Source: a virus. Taken from it: a stretch of 39,477 nucleotides of DNA. The position numbers and the translations under genes were made by a program. The notes under the pieces were generated by a model, which was not told the origin of the DNA, searched no databases, and saw only the letters and a program-made list of their open reading frames with translations. The DNA is taken from IMG/VR virus record IMGVR_UViG_3300007512_002366, positions 1 through 39,477 of that record, one strand, 5' to 3'. Below are positions 33,022-39,168 of this stretch, piece after piece (within the stretch, counting starts at the first letter, position 1; the number at the start of each line of letters is the position of its first letter).

Positions 33022-33094
33022 AGCCTCCGGACAGATTCGAACTGACGACCTGCTGATTACAAATCAGCTGCTCTACCAACTGAGCTACAGAGGC
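33022..33094 (-). tRNA. tRNA-Thr (anticodon TGT)
   Basis: On the minus strand the gene begins GCCTCTGTAGCTCAG and ends TCTGTCCGGAGGCT. The acceptor stem pairs G1-C72 through G7-C66 with one T-G wobble. The D-arm is GCTCAGTTGGTAGAGC and the anticodon loop TTTGTAA reads TGT. The T-arm has GTTCGAATC with one T-T mismatch (positions 50-64). CCA is not encoded. It is the only tRNA in the window. Confidence 0.93.
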
Positions 33095-33434: not shown

Positions 33435-35351
33435 CTATATGCTTTTAAAGGGAAATTCTACTTTAAATTCTTTTCCTAATGTTTTGTCGAAATTCTCTTT
33501 TGAACTTATAAACCACTGTTTAACAGCGTCTAAGCTTCGAGCTGCAGCTTCTTGGCCAGTTTTTAATCCTTCATTGCGAAGTTCAAAATTTAATTTTCCT
33601 TGAATGTGATCCCAAGATTGGCCGGCGGGCGAATCAATAGGTTTTTTGCTTTTTGGCAAATCAAATATGTCTTCTAAATCTTGCATAGCGTGCATTTTTG
33701 ATAATTCTTGGTCCAAATTACGAGCAAACCTAATTATTTTCTCACTTTTGTCTTCAAATATAGCCAGCGCGAAAAGACGTTTGGTACTATATCCGCCAAG
33801 CGTTCCTGCTTCATATTGGCTTCGAAGATATTGGTCTACATTTTCAAAAGTTTGACCTCTCATATGAATTGATATAACATCGGCTATATGTTCTAGTTCT
33901 TCTTTATTTGGAGATCTTCCTATTAATTCGTTGAAGGCTTTTTTAATATAAGGAAAAGCTTCTCTAGTGTACTTGTGCATCTCTCTTCGTTTTACATGAA
34001 CGAAGGACATTTTATTATCAAAACTTTCAACTTGATCTATCATATTTCTACTGAAAAACACTGCTTGCATTGGTTCTGCGTGATGAATCATACCTTTGCC
34101 TACATAATCCGATACTCCGCCGACACCGATTGCTCTCCAAATTTTTGACCAACCTTGCATATCATTGGTTTTTTGTTTGGTATAGCTTCTTGTAATGTTC
34201 CATAATATTCCCAAAGGAAATTTATGATGTGCGCCATCAGTAGCTAGCTGTACTGCGGGGCTCATTTTAATTGTTTGTATATTGCCAGATTTATTATCTT
34301 TAATACCTAGGTGCTTTTTCCACTGTTCTGCAGTAAAATAACCCCATCTATTACCAGTACCTATTACGTCACTAATGCCCAAGGACGGATAATCCGGGTT
34401 CTTTTTTAGTGCTTCTTGTGATTTTTTCTTTAGAAAATCCCACGCATACATTATTGCTTTTGCATGATTTAGATTAAATCCTGGTTCCTTTATTACGCCT
34501 TCTGGATATTTCTCACTAGGCCTCTGCAAAGTTCGTACTGAATCGACTTCAGGGTCGTACCCTATTTTTTTATGTATTGTGTCGACGTACTGTTGAGTAG
34601 CATCAAATTGGCCTTTGACAGCGTAGCTAGCTACCCACCTTATCATATTACTAAAATAATCTAGTCGCGAATACGGGCCAGGATACTTAAAATACTTTTT
34701 TATCTCTTCAAATGCATCTTTTAAATTAGGATCTGCTGTATGGCTTTCTAAAAAGTATTCATCATCTTTTTTACTCAAAAGTCGTCTCAAATCATCGATA
34801 GCATTAAGTTCTTCTTCGACGTGTCCTTTTTCTACTTGTTTCTTAAACTTCTCAAACTCTTCATACATATAGGGAACTTGTTCAAGGTAGCTATCTATTT
34901 CTCCATCCGGAGTTCTTCTGGCCATTCTTTTTGTAAGCTTTTTGCCTACGGGCCCAGAAAACAACTTTACTAATTTCTCATCTAAGTCTTGTTCCGTAAA
35001 GCTTTTGTCGACATATAAAACTTCAGTATCTTTTCTTGGTCTGACTACATGAAGAAACTTTCTTTCAGATGCAAAAGGTATCTTTCCTTTTTCAAGCTGC
35101 CCAAGAATCTCTTCATTAACAGGATAAAAATAAATTCCCAATGGAGTTTCATATCCCGATTGAGGTTTAATACCAATCTTGTTCAGATCCGAAAAATGCA
35201 TATAATGAGTCGGCTTCTGCCCTGAAGGAACAGAATACTTCTTAAGCTTTTCTAGCATAGTCGGAAGATTAATGCCGCGCTTTTTAGCAGCAGTTGCTTC
35301 GTCAATATTATCTTCTTGTAAGAATTTTTGCCAGTTATTATGAAAAGTCAT
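33435..35351 (-). CDS. Large candidate injected protein with ADP-ribosyltransferase-like N-terminal domain
   Basis: The 638-residue product begins MTFHNNWQKFLQEDNID, a capsid-targeting-like leader with L-Q-E before a possible cleavage site. Residues about 45-140 (THYMHFSDLNKIGIKPQSG, then TPLGIYFYPV) resemble the ADP-ribosyltransferase-type fold found in large-phage virion proteins. The long helical rest contains FKYPGPYSRLDYFSNMIRWV and WKKHLGIKD, and is of unknown function. By analogy with T4 Alt it may be packed in the head and enter the host with the DNA; this is inference. It heads a block of three genes with similar leaders. Confidence 0.62.
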   Translation of the reverse strand: MTFHNNWQKFLQEDNIDEATAAKKRGINLPTMLEKLKKYSVPSGQKPTHYMHFSDLNKIGIKPQSGYETPLGIYFYPVNEEILGQLEKGKIPFASERKFLHVVRPRKDTEVLYVDKSFTEQDLDEKLVKLFSGPVGKKLTKRMARRTPDGEIDSYLEQVPYMYEEFEKFKKQVEKGHVEEELNAIDDLRRLLSKKDDEYFLESHTADPNLKDAFEEIKKYFKYPGPYSRLDYFSNMIRWVASYAVKGQFDATQQYVDTIHKKIGYDPEVDSVRTLQRPSEKYPEGVIKEPGFNLNHAKAIMYAWDFLKKKSQEALKKNPDYPSLGISDVIGTGNRWGYFTAEQWKKHLGIKDNKSGNIQTIKMSPAVQLATDGAHHKFPLGILWNITRSYTKQKTNDMQGWSKIWRAIGVGGVSDYVGKGMIHHAEPMQAVFFSRNMIDQVESFDNKMSFVHVKRREMHKYTREAFPYIKKAFNELIGRSPNKEELEHIADVISIHMRGQTFENVDQYLRSQYEAGTLGGYSTKRLFALAIFEDKSEKIIRFARNLDQELSKMHAMQDLEDIFDLPKSKKPIDSPAGQSWDHIQGKLNFELRNEGLKTGQEAAARSLDAVKQWFISSKENFDKTLGKEFKVEFPFKSI

Positions 35352-35362
35352 ATTTTATCCTA

Positions 35363-36247
35363 CTAAATAAATAGTTCTTGAGACTGCTTCTGAATTTGTC
35401 GATACAGTCTTTTTCTAAACTTATTTAACTCTTGTTGATTACTCTTTAGTACTTCTGCATAGTCCCTCACTACTCTTGATATCTCCGGATACCTTTCTAA
35501 ATCGACAGGATTAAGCCTTTTTATCGCTTCAAGAGCTTTCTCGGGCCCATACTTATCTAGGAGCTGTTCTGCTGCTTCGTGGGCATACGCGTCAATTTCT
35601 CCGTGTCTGGTGAGATATAGTTCTCTCTCATCTACTATTTCCTCTTCTGGGGGGTATTCTCCACATATTTCAAAATATCTCTCTGGGTCACCGGCGGGAA
35701 CTTGTTTTGTATCACATACCATTTCTCGATATGCCTCATAATCAGACAGTCTTTTTGATTTCGCTTGATTTTTCAATTGATAAAAGTGTATCAATTCATG
35801 ATTAATTGTTGTAGATATATTTTTAGATAGTTCAAGTGAATCCAACTCGTTAAGATCAAATTCATTAGATATTGGTCTAAGTTCAATCCAAACAACATGT
35901 TGACCGTCTAATTCTTCATATGGTCCCCTATATTGAGCCTGTAATATCCAATTGTCTGGATATCCATCGTATTCATCTTTCGGACCTAAAACATATTTCT
36001 CATCGCCAACAGAAATACTGAAATATATATCTGATATTTGATTGAGAGCTTCTTGAAGTGTTTCAGAGGCCGGTGTTCCCATTAAATTATCTAAACCATC
36101 TGACTTTATATCAATATCTATGGGATTATTTGGTTGTTCCCAAAATTTAGAATCAACAATTGTTTGAAAAATAGCATCTTTTAGTTCTGTTTCTAAAGAT
36201 GTAACTTCGTTTACATACTTCCGCCAATTTTCAAGTAGGAGTTTCAT
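35363..36247 (-). CDS. Putative HELIH zinc metallopeptidase with capsid-targeting-like leader
   Basis: 294 residues. The leader MKLLLENWRKYVNEVTSLE has the same ENWR core as the next gene. The peptidase motif TTINHELIHFYQ (147-158; H150, E151, H154) is followed by HGEIDAYAHEAAE (215-227), where E217 is a fitting third zinc ligand. The middle carries YRGPYEELDGQHVVWIELRP, a strand-rich region. A protease delivered with the genome, or acting in the head, is the natural inference. TAATG overlap links it to 36247-36807. Confidence 0.75.
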   Translation of the reverse strand: MKLLLENWRKYVNEVTSLETELKDAIFQTIVDSKFWEQPNNPIDIDIKSDGLDNLMGTPASETLQEALNQISDIYFSISVGDEKYVLGPKDEYDGYPDNWILQAQYRGPYEELDGQHVVWIELRPISNEFDLNELDSLELSKNISTTINHELIHFYQLKNQAKSKRLSDYEAYREMVCDTKQVPAGDPERYFEICGEYPPEEEIVDERELYLTRHGEIDAYAHEAAEQLLDKYGPEKALEAIKRLNPVDLERYPEISRVVRDYAEVLKSNQQELNKFRKRLYRQIQKQSQELFI

Positions 36248-36807
36248 TAAGCGATCCTTTTTATTTCATTCGGGCTATAACCACGAAGAGAGACCGCCGT
36301 ACCAGTTGTATCGATAACTGCTTGCTGCAAAGCCGTTCGAGGTCTTATAACATCAACCAATTCTTCAAAATATACATCATTATATGTATCATCTTGATAT
36401 GGAGATCCCCAACCCGCATTGTTCATATATGTTTGTAGCGGTTCGGGTACTTCGTCTCTATCTGACCACCAAAAGTGATCCTCCTCTCTGTTAGCATCAT
36501 GATCTTCGAGCGAGGGAAGATCTGGCAATAATAGTTCATCACCAACATCTACTTGAAACGCGGCTCCTTCGTATTCTCTTGTTGTTGACTTGTTTGGTTC
36601 TTTCGAAAGATAAACCGGCCTCATTCCATACACCTCATCGGCCCAGTGGTCTCCGAGAGTGAAGCCTCCAACAAAGCCACCGTGATCTGCATATATGCCT
36701 TCTTGCTCGACATCATTTGCAGTTGTTTCGTGAGTTGTGTGGTACCAAATATTGTTATTTAGAGATTCCGTTAAATATTGGCGCCAGTTTTCAAATAGGA
36801 GTTTCAT
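36247..36807 (-). CDS. Candidate ADP-ribosyltransferase-fold protein with capsid-targeting-like leader
   Basis: 186 residues. The leader MKLLFENWRQYLTES is followed by NNIWYHTTHETTANDVEQEGI (18-38), the H-T and glycine layout of the first strand and helix of ADP-ribosyltransferase-like folds. RPVYLSKEPN (63-72) and YEGAAFQVDVGDELLLPD match the later strands. Catalytic-site assignment is uncertain: a Glu in YFEELVDVIRP is a possible third residue. By analogy with T4 Alt/Mod such a protein would modify host RNA polymerase or ribosomal proteins early. It starts after an AGAGG site. Confidence 0.6.
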   Translation of the reverse strand: MKLLFENWRQYLTESLNNNIWYHTTHETTANDVEQEGIYADHGGFVGGFTLGDHWADEVYGMRPVYLSKEPNKSTTREYEGAAFQVDVGDELLLPDLPSLEDHDANREEDHFWWSDRDEVPEPLQTYMNNAGWGSPYQDDTYNDVYFEELVDVIRPRTALQQAVIDTTGTAVSLRGYSPNEIKRIA

Positions 36808-37010
36808 TTTTGTAACCTCTTATTTGCATAAGTATTCCATTCATAAACTTTTTTAAGTGTACTTTCTAAATTCCATTTTACTGGCATATCGGTTGGCACA
36901 AGGGCGTGAAATAAAAACATTATTCCGCCTAAAATTAAATTTATTCCAACTTTTCCTGCGAATAAAAAATGACTAAGATAAGTTTCGTTGTTATCTTTAA
37001 GGTGTTTCAT
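36804..37010 (-). CDS. Small membrane protein, DUF6356-like (68 aa)
   Basis: The protein opens with MKHLKDNNETYLSHFLFAGKVG and has one strong membrane segment (VGINLILGGIMFLFHALVP). This HL...Y..H...A...HALVP pattern is that of the DUF6356 family of unknown function. It overlaps the next gene by 4 bases. A TATAAATA box lies just upstream (37030-37023), but with only 12 bases before the ATG. Confidence 0.65.
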   Translation of the reverse strand: MKHLKDNNETYLSHFLFAGKVGINLILGGIMFLFHALVPTDMPVKWNLESTLKKVYEWNTYANKRLQK

Positions 37011-37022
37011 TATACTAAATAG

Positions 37023-37030
37023 TATTTATA
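37023..37030 (-). promoter_or_regulatory. TATAAATA box, doubtful late promoter
   Basis: A perfect minus-strand TATAAATA overlaps the stop codon of 37026-37565 and lies 12 bases ahead of the next ATG. The expected start would leave a leader of about 6 bases without a ribosome-binding site, so this may be chance. Confidence 0.25.
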
Positions 37031-37565
37031 TGTCTATATTGGCTAATATCTTATTAAGATTATTAATAAATTCTGTATGTTTAAATGTCCACCCTTCATA
37101 TAGATTTCCTTCGTGATCCGGATCTCCCTGAGAACTTCCAGTATTCCATAAAGCAATATGTACTAGTTCGTGAATTAATGCAGTGGACGCAATTCTATTG
37201 TATCTGTTTTTCCATATACGTATATAACTTGGGGATATAGCTACACCTCTGAAAGTGCCGCTATTAATATTTCCATCAACAGAATATCCTAGCGCCCTTT
37301 GAGACTTTTCGTCTGTCCACTCTATCATAATAGAATTTAAAGCTAAAAAAACCTTATCATCTTTGTCACCGAACTCTTGTTTCCAGTGCTTATAAAATAT
37401 TTGTAAAGCTCTAGACACATTATCTGTAGATGGCCAAGAATTGGTTTCTTGTATTTGCCAAGCATTTGTATGGTTTGGCAATTTAACCAGTTGTGTGTTT
37501 AAATAAGAAGGAGTTGGGCTACAACTAATTAATATTATAGATAAAAATATTAGTAATAGTCTCAT
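37026..37565 (-). CDS. Zinc metallopeptidase-like lipoprotein
   Basis: 179 residues. The N terminus MRLLLIFLSIILISC is a lipoprotein signal with Cys15. The catalytic motif STALIHELVHIALW (127-140; H132, E133, H136) is followed by DPDHEGNLYEGW, in which D150 or H151 may be the third ligand, as in aspzincin- or SprT-like peptidases. It would be periplasmic. A role in lysis or receptor modification is possible. An AGGAGG site lies 13 bases before the ATG. Confidence 0.76.
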   Translation of the reverse strand: MRLLLIFLSIILISCSPTPSYLNTQLVKLPNHTNAWQIQETNSWPSTDNVSRALQIFYKHWKQEFGDKDDKVFLALNSIMIEWTDEKSQRALGYSVDGNINSGTFRGVAISPSYIRIWKNRYNRIASTALIHELVHIALWNTGSSQGDPDHEGNLYEGWTFKHTEFINNLNKILANIDI

Positions 37566-38023: not shown

Positions 38024-38173
38024 TTAATCTCCACCATAAGTTTTCCAAAGTTCTATAGCTTCTTCAAATTCAGCTAAACATTCTGGATTTAATGATTTTA
38101 ATGCATCATCTAATATTTTTTTATTTTCAGGTTTCATATATTTTTCTATTATCTTATCAAGCGAGTTCTTCAT
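38024..38173 (-). CDS. Tiny uncharacterised protein (49 aa)
   Basis: ATG 38173 (MKNSLDKIIEKYMKP) to TAA 38024 gives 49 residues ending ELWKTYGGD. The start lies 17 bases inside the preceding gene with a GGAAGAAG stretch before it. The middle, KKILDDALKSLNPECLAEFEEAIELW, is helical. Without this gene there would be about 170 bases of empty sequence, unusual here. No family recognised. Confidence 0.55.
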   Translation of the reverse strand: MKNSLDKIIEKYMKPENKKILDDALKSLNPECLAEFEEAIELWKTYGGD

Positions 38174-38474
38174 CTTCTTCCAATTTCATTTTAGTAACAG
38201 AATGTTTTAAAGCAGAAGCTAATGGTTGAAATGCTAAATGATTACTTAAAATATTGGCCGCATCTAATATAACACTCTCTTCCTCTGGAGTAAATCCAAC
38301 AGGAATATTTGTTGGCTCGGGAGATGGTTCTGATATGCCTCTAGCTCTTGCAAATGCTCTGTTCCATCGATCGGACCCGGGTTCAGCATATGCTTCAGAA
38401 ATAGTCTGTTTAATAATTTTTCTTAACAGTTCATTAGTTAAGGTTTTTTTGGTTTTTTTATCTCTAGTTTCCAT
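38157..38474 (-). CDS. Uncharacterised small helical protein (105 aa) with leader-like N terminus
   Basis: After a basic start (METRDKKTKKTL) the sequence TNELLRKIIKQTISEAYAEPG has the amphipathic helix and I-S-E/A junction seen in the other leader proteins. The rest, DRWNRAFARARGISEP and EESVILDAANILSNHLAFQPLA, is helical. The start overlaps the upstream gene by 37 bases; no shorter ATG exists. No function can be given. Confidence 0.6.
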   Translation of the reverse strand: METRDKKTKKTLTNELLRKIIKQTISEAYAEPGSDRWNRAFARARGISEPSPEPTNIPVGFTPEEESVILDAANILSNHLAFQPLASALKHSVTKMKLEEDEELA

Positions 38475-38875
38475 TTTTCTTTACCCTTAATAATAACAAC
38501 TAATTGACCAAGTTCAGCCCATATGCCAATTGCGGCCGGCATAATATTTGGTATATAATCTCCACTCTCTACTTTAGATATAAAATATACTGAAGATAGA
38601 ATTACCTGGGCTTCTTCATTTTTTAATTCTGATATCTCGAAAGTCTTTTTACTCTTGTGTAGTTTTTCTAACCAATCTATACTTCGAGCGAATAAATCAG
38701 AATAATCCTTTTTGGATTTCTTTTTAGATATTTTTGTAGAATCGTATAAGTGACCTTTTATGGTTGTGATATGAAGGTCTTTTAGCGGAGTAGTAAATAC
38801 AGTTACTTTAGCATTTGCTGCTAAGGGAAGAAAACAAAGTAGCAGAGCTATAGTTAACTTCTTTAATTTATACAT
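38438..38875 (-). CDS. Exported uncharacterised protein (145 aa)
   Basis: A Sec signal peptide is clear: positive start, hydrophobic LTIALLLCFLPLAANA, cleavage expected after ANA (residue 22). The mature protein is basic (ISKKKSKKDY, GKEKWKLEIKKPKKP) with a strand-rich middle (AQVILSSVYFIS, LGQLVVIIKG). Family not recognised. It starts in a TAATG overlap with 38875-39168. Confidence 0.68.
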   Translation of the reverse strand: MYKLKKLTIALLLCFLPLAANAKVTVFTTPLKDLHITTIKGHLYDSTKISKKKSKKDYSDLFARSIDWLEKLHKSKKTFEISELKNEEAQVILSSVYFISKVESGDYIPNIMPAAIGIWAELGQLVVIIKGKEKWKLEIKKPKKP

Positions 38876-39168
38876 TATGCACCCGGGCCGGATGGCATGT
38901 CTGTATTTAATTTATTTTTTAATTTCTTTAAAATTAAATCTCCGCGGGGAATACTGGCAATATGATTAACTACTGCATCTAGAAACGCCATGCCTTCTTT
39001 TGGTTGATCAATTTTCTGTAGATACATCAGAGCCTTCGCTACATCTCCTTTGGGCTCATCTGTGGCTGGTGCCGCAGCCGGCTCAGGAGCTGCTTCGGGC
39101 ACCTCTTCCGATAAGTTTCCTAACTCTTCTTTAATAAGTGATTTTAAGATTTCTCTTGATAATTTCAT
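38875..39168 (-). CDS. Small protein with capsid-targeting-like leader (97 aa)
   Basis: MKLSREILKSLIKEELGNLSEEVPEA: an amphipathic helix with L-I-K-E and L-S-E, then a Pro/Ala/Glu-rich linker (EAAPEPAAAPATDEP) and a folded C-terminal part with DVAKALMYLQKIDQPKEGMAF and GDLILKKLKNKL. N termini like this are common among marine phage proteins, to my recollection. A strong AAAGGAG site precedes the ATG. Likely virion-associated; function unknown. Confidence 0.7.
   Translation of the reverse strand: MKLSREILKSLIKEELGNLSEEVPEAAPEPAAAPATDEPKGDVAKALMYLQKIDQPKEGMAFLDAVVNHIASIPRGDLILKKLKNKLNTDMPSGPGA

Follow-up and report, generated by a model that had tools for sequence, protein, structure and literature searches.

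The virus fragment analysed here (IMG/VR record IMGVR_UViG_3300007512_002366; the window, 39,477 bases in its whole length) carries three minus-strand genes, P_A, P_B and P_C, whose products are probably head cargo of a T4-like phage, packaged by means of a cleaved N-terminal leader and then ejected into the host. The three genes belong to a protein set that is widespread among ocean viruses and has a 14-residue tag in common, which most likely serves to load many different enzymes into the head, is removed there and allows them to be ejected with the DNA. The initial annotation had proposed an injected effector cassette of two ADP-ribosyltransferases (ARTs) flanking a metallopeptidase; open reading frame calling confirmed the three frames at the positions below, as well as their motifs NNIWYHTT, HELIH and THYMHFSDL...TPLGIYFYP. 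Arrows mark predicted cuts.

36247-36807, minus strand: P_A, 186 amino acids (aa), leader and small ART-like cargo, with motifs IWYHTT ... YGMRPVYLS ... FQVDV ... PNEIKRI
36766-36807, minus strand: P_A leader, residues 1-14, MKLLFENWRQYLTE; prohead-protease cut predicted past Glu14 (LTE↓S) from the conservation census and the L/I-X-E rule
35363-36247, minus strand: P_B, 294 aa, leader and zinc-metallopeptidase-like cargo, with HELIH at residues 150-154 and a conserved GEIDAYAHE downstream
36206-36247, minus strand: P_B leader, residues 1-14, MKLLLENWRKYVNE; predicted cut VNE↓V
33435-35351, minus strand: P_C, 638 aa, large cargo, whose candidate ART-like motifs lie partly at residues 48-78 and partly at about 379-433
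35298-35351, minus strand: P_C candidate leader, residues 1-18, MTFHNNWQKFLQEDNIDE; predicted cut IDE↓A, alternatively after LQE13

A leader-tagged cassette and its sister phage

The three genes lie head to tail; the P_A stop and the P_B start have one base in common, and P_C follows after 11 nt. The N-termini of P_A and P_B are near-identical, MKLL(F/L)ENWR(Q/K)Y(L/V)xE, and the window has two matches to the pattern GARAAYTGGMGNMARTWY, where 0.01 would be expected. P_C carries only a weaker version (MTFHNNWQKFLQE). In all three members of its family, I-x-E↓ATAAKKRG is invariant while the residues ahead of this motif differ, a conservation that fits a gp21 cut at residue 18.

From about 20 kb to 38 kb, the window is for the most part colinear with a contig of 161.7 kb (G001, IMGVR_UViG_3300030419_007010), and the encoded proteins are mostly 45–92% identical. 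This sister phage is T4-like, encoding a gp23-type capsid protein, a gp20-type portal, a terminase and a gp21-type prohead protease (Peptidase_S77, 38917-39570 in G001); the nearest named relatives of its capsid protein are found in Microcystis phage Mel-JY01 and Flavobacterium phage immuto. P_B and P_C are 75% and 80% identical to their sister counterparts, and the first 28 residues of P_B do not differ between the two phages, although five nucleotides have changed silently. P_A is absent from the sister, which instead encodes at this place three different proteins that begin with MKNLFESWRQYVNE, MKNLFENWRQYLNE and MKILFENWRKYLNE. Since P_B and P_C are conserved and P_A is swapped, the cassette consists of real genes and not of chance open reading frames. 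Since the P_A slot holds other leader-bearing genes, the leader is kept while the cargo changes.

Conservation and predicted processing of the leader

The DNA pattern for FENWR(K/Q)(Y/F)L was run over 2.9 million viral contigs with no constraint on the start codon. It identified 119 sites in 81 stretches of uncultured phages, 99 of them exactly four residues past an ATG; the remaining sites mostly follow GTG, TTG or other starts, and a handful in very short frames look like chance. In 14 large contigs, a motif pattern gave 62 matches, confined to a single strand in each contig and numbering up to 13 per contig, against one match for the reversed pattern. A KLL-extended version had no match in 257 Gb of cellular genomes, and the cargo of phage immuto, among the best annotated relatives by capsid, does not carry this leader, termed here the W leader for its invariant Trp. 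No mention of the FENWR motif in a phage context was found in the literature searched.

A relaxed collection comprises 156 proteins in 88 cargo clusters; it was restricted to proteins with the Trp motif close to the N-terminus and with L/I/V/M at position 12, and these positions are therefore not independent evidence. Glu14 was part of neither search, and residue 14 is Glu in 135 of 151 leader proteins. The entropy is 0.76 bits at this residue and rises to 3.3–4 bits from residue 15, so that the cargo side is unconserved. L/I-x-E lies at the expected site in 126 of the 156 proteins, one residue later in a further 12 and as [VM]-x-E in 13, compared with a background of 1.1% per position in the cargo. 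Third codon positions of the leader vary where the residues stay constant, which indicates that selection acts at the protein level.

In phage T4, the internal proteins (IPs) carry an N-terminal capsid-targeting sequence (CTS) of 10–19 residues, gp21 cleaves after L/I-X-E, and the IPs and Alt are ejected (PMC9026906). The leaders of P_A and P_B (14 residues from the initiator Met) and of P_C (18 residues) fall within this size range, and those of P_A and P_C end in a strict L/I-X-E (LTE and IDE). Peptidase_S77, the gp21 family, is encoded in nine of ten large leader contigs, including the sister phage (E 1e-25 to 1e-34), and in none of 14 control genomes. Because of its position, its L/I-x-E end and this co-occurrence, the leader has the features of a CTS with a sequence of its own. 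The IPII/IPIII N-terminus is MKTYQEFIAE↓A; by eye, the W leader and the T4 propeptides have in common only MK...(F/Y)(I/L)xE. We read the W leader, on these sequence features, as a new class of CTS. The earlier idea of head-packaged, injected effectors resembling T4 Alt is largely supported and stands on stronger grounds than before, because the leader behaves as a CTS with a gp21-type site at its end and because relatives encode gp21.

We infer a pathway of targeting, cleavage and ejection, as well as the enzymatic activities of the cargoes. The first 14 residues, M-K-L-L-F-E-N-W-R-K/Q-Y/F-L-x-E, would bind the prohead core as a CTS, and the gp21-type protease would cleave past Glu14 during head maturation. 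The mature cargo would stay within the capsid alongside the DNA and be ejected into the host on infection. There, P_A would probably act as an ART-fold enzyme, P_B as a zinc metallopeptidase and P_C as a large Alt-sized effector, possibly also ART-like.

Three further points support the reading of the leader as a CTS. The virion protein EST35_0205 of phage PA5oct (annotated as detected by electrospray ionization tandem mass spectrometry, ESI-MS/MS) is homologous to several leader-tagged cargoes, with E-values referring to a small set; in the full phage collection, E is 1e-4. Homologous cargo stands behind the W leader in L112 but behind MIKLKSLLQE in Mel-JY01, and in both the leader gives way to cargo at the Glu. 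In L128 (3001-4266), a P_B homologue is joined through an internal, leader-like IFNNWRKFLRE to a second cargo, a relative of which is encoded in L047 by a gene of its own, again with a leader; the prohead protease may split this fusion as a precursor.

Several small genes of the same phages and of the cultured phage immuto have another type of short leader, MK(L/I)TK.QLKQIIKEEL...LxE, which is perhaps a further core-targeting tag. Its sites are:

38875-39168 and 38157-38474 in the window
54023-55397 (L008) and 139933-141531 (L012/L013) in G001
13188-13946 in L121
6742-7047 in L108

Folds and relatives of the cargoes

Searches of Pfam, PHROG, NCBIfam and PDB sequences returned nothing significant for P_A, P_B or P_C, tblastn against 50,697 phages returned nothing useful, and homology to T4 Alt was undetectable in Pfam, PHROG and NCBIfam for all three. 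The homologues of P_A (L107, L108 and L069) are all leader-tagged, and none was found in cellular genomes. An AlphaFold model from a four-sequence alignment reached a predicted local distance difference test (pLDDT) score of 75.7 and a predicted template-modelling (pTM) score of 0.75; the fold from a two-sequence alignment (pLDDT 33) was not used. In a Foldseek search against the PDB, counted by entry and including Rhs complex entries without regard to chain identity, 13 of 15 matches, and the first 12 exclusively, were ART toxin entries, all with E of at least 0.6 and a template-modelling score of about 0.35. The viral matches (best E 0.007) are unnamed proteins interspersed with an RNA 2'-phosphotransferase (KptA), DarT and a PARP domain. 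The model suggests that P_A is likely to have an ART-like fold, while the chances of an activity dependent on nicotinamide adenine dinucleotide (NAD) are evenly balanced and a KptA-like RNA 2'-phosphotransferase is a live alternative.

P_B is zinc-peptidase-like by its sequence and matches no named Pfam family. Its homologues L126–L129 all have the leader, an invariant HExxH and E-x-DAYAHEAAE; across five homologues, H150, E151, H154 and E217-x-D219 are invariant, which gives HExxH together with a downstream acidic ligand. The proposal that the HELIH protein is a peptidase accordingly holds at the level of a metallopeptidase-like protein.

Only two relatives of P_C were found, the 80% identical L001 and the distant L106, and it had no match in profile searches either. 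L106 matches P_C in two separate blocks, HF(S/T)...TP-G-(Y/F)..YP and GV-D-G...IH..EP.QAVFF, which look like ART motifs by eye only. The neighbourhood of L106 includes W-leader cargo in which a YHGS motif is present, as well as proteins that contain RGM...SW(S/T) motifs; one of the latter has a sub-threshold Pfam ART match (E 0.044). Judged from these motifs, membership of P_C in the ART fold falls slightly short of an even chance. The two ARTs of the initial annotation are thus only partly supported, with one statistically weak structural assignment, P_A, and one motif resemblance, P_C.

The combination of a peptidase between ART-like proteins, which had been put forward as novel, is not unique, as similar layouts exist in the cultured Mel-JY01 and in L108. 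In Mel-JY01 (L138 10276-12718), ART-like genes flank an HELSH (HExxH) peptidase and carry the short leader MIKLKSLLQE, which likewise ends in L-x-E; this leader differs from the W leader, and the ART family is homologous to that of L112 and not detectably to P_A. Since P_A and the Mel-JY01/L112 family gave no match when their profiles were compared, we claim no homology between these ART-like groups. The same cluster also holds a truncated third ART-like copy of 60 aa. Because Mel-JY01 and L108 also combine peptidase with ART-like genes, the arrangement in the window probably represents one sample of a large pool of exchangeable cargoes and not a dedicated three-part machine. Some leader-tagged proteins have the glycine-loop motifs of protein kinases and are candidates for injected kinases; they were observed at L036:1418-2452, L043:5003-6016, L079:2756-3829 and L127:1392-2393.

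Alternative readings, known systems and neighbouring genes

Packaging is well supported by the sequence features of the leader. Several points weigh against the full reading of packaged and ejected enzymes. The P_B site is VNE, with V in place of L/I as in the 13 [VM]xE cases, and the P_C leader is degenerate. The window itself contains no head genes, and gp21 is seen only in the sister. The PA5oct homologue is remote (about 24–31% identity) and has no W leader. The PDB matches of P_A are weak. Since not every head protein is ejected, injection is argued by analogy with T4.

One rival is that the leader is a tag binding the core or scaffold and that the proteins act in head assembly or within the virion, as structural or morphogenetic components that are not injected. 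Genuine head-assembly proteins of this lineage likewise contain W-x(3)-FL-x-E-like and L-x-E motifs, namely the gp23 propeptide of the sister phage (LLEKWDRTGLLEG) and a 75-aa protein adjoining the prohead protease of phage immuto, and T4 IPIII affects head assembly (PMC9026906). The cargo, however, is very diverse, is swapped between close relatives, as with P_A, and includes kinases, guanylate kinase, NUDIX, HAD, HExxH peptidases and ART-like proteins, unlike structural proteins. We regard this rival as rather unlikely. Far less probable is a common 5' end that acts as a DNA recombination module for gene shuffling and encodes a peptide without function: leader genes do stand in arrays with exchanged cargo, but the element begins exactly at the initiator Met, its conservation stops at the protease motif, and the variation at synonymous positions led us to reject a DNA repeat. 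Equally improbable is a leader that sends the proteins elsewhere, such as the host envelope or secretion, as the neighbouring lipoprotein P_D might hint, since the leader lacks a hydrophobic core (E, N, R and K are interspersed), ends in L-x-E and not in a signal-peptidase site, and co-occurs with gp21; on its composition, we rejected a secretion signal.

Returning to cargo ejected from the head, we lean slightly towards the broader view that the leader marks a lineage-wide injected arsenal, in which every one of these T4-like, uncultured marine phages packs from several to about a dozen exchangeable enzymes into its head via one cleavable tag, as the phage counterpart of polymorphic effector systems. 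This view covers the kinases, ARTs, peptidases and nucleotide enzymes, as well as fused cargoes split by an internal tag, as in L128. MuF and polymorphic toxins likewise join a constant N-terminal trafficking part to an exchangeable effector part, whereas the tag here is a 14-residue cleavable peptide in T4-like phages. T4 IPI, IPII and IPIII likewise combine a short propeptide ending in L/I-x-E with hypervariable cargo and T4-type head genes including gp21. They are, however, three small basic proteins, whereas the present leader is built around an invariant Trp and heads arrays in which up to 13 genes stand together and enzyme domains can be recognised. T4 Alt is also cleaved by gp21, at ITE/LTE (PMC5694885), and is an injected ART, as proposed here; P_C is similar in size. 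P_A has an H-x-T motif (KptA/PARP/DarT-like) and not the R-S-E arrangement. In the giant phages phiKZ and SPN3US, a gp21-related protease removes the propeptides of the head ejection proteins, some of which have identical N-termini (PMC5694885), but these propeptides are mostly longer than 100 aa and have a different cleavage motif.

The proteins that enter the host in the first seconds of infection are mostly unknown beyond a few model phages. If the proposed reading is correct, a simple leader motif would allow injected proteins to be recognised from the genome sequence itself, many dozens of marine phage genes that are now anonymous would become testable candidates for host takeover or anti-defence, and a new peptide tag would be available for loading proteins into phage heads.

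Upstream of P_A, the following features were identified:

36804-37010, minus strand: DUF6356 protein, 68 aa, first gene of the apparent operon (Pfam E 1.3e-10)
37023-37030, minus strand: TATAAATA, T4-type late-promoter-like octamer, 12 nt ahead of the DUF6356 start
37026-37565, minus strand: P_D, lipoprotein-like HELVH peptidase, 179 aa, without leader

Across the window, the octamer is about as frequent as chance predicts and is thus weak as a late promoter. P_D travels with the cassette in a position that differs between the two phages, lying between P_B and P_C in the sister. A tRNA-Thr (TGT) is located directly downstream of P_C at 33022-33094, and a long surface-sugar island of glycosyltransferases, methyltransferases, NeuB-like synthases and sugar nucleotidyltransferases extends from 365 to 22688 in the window.
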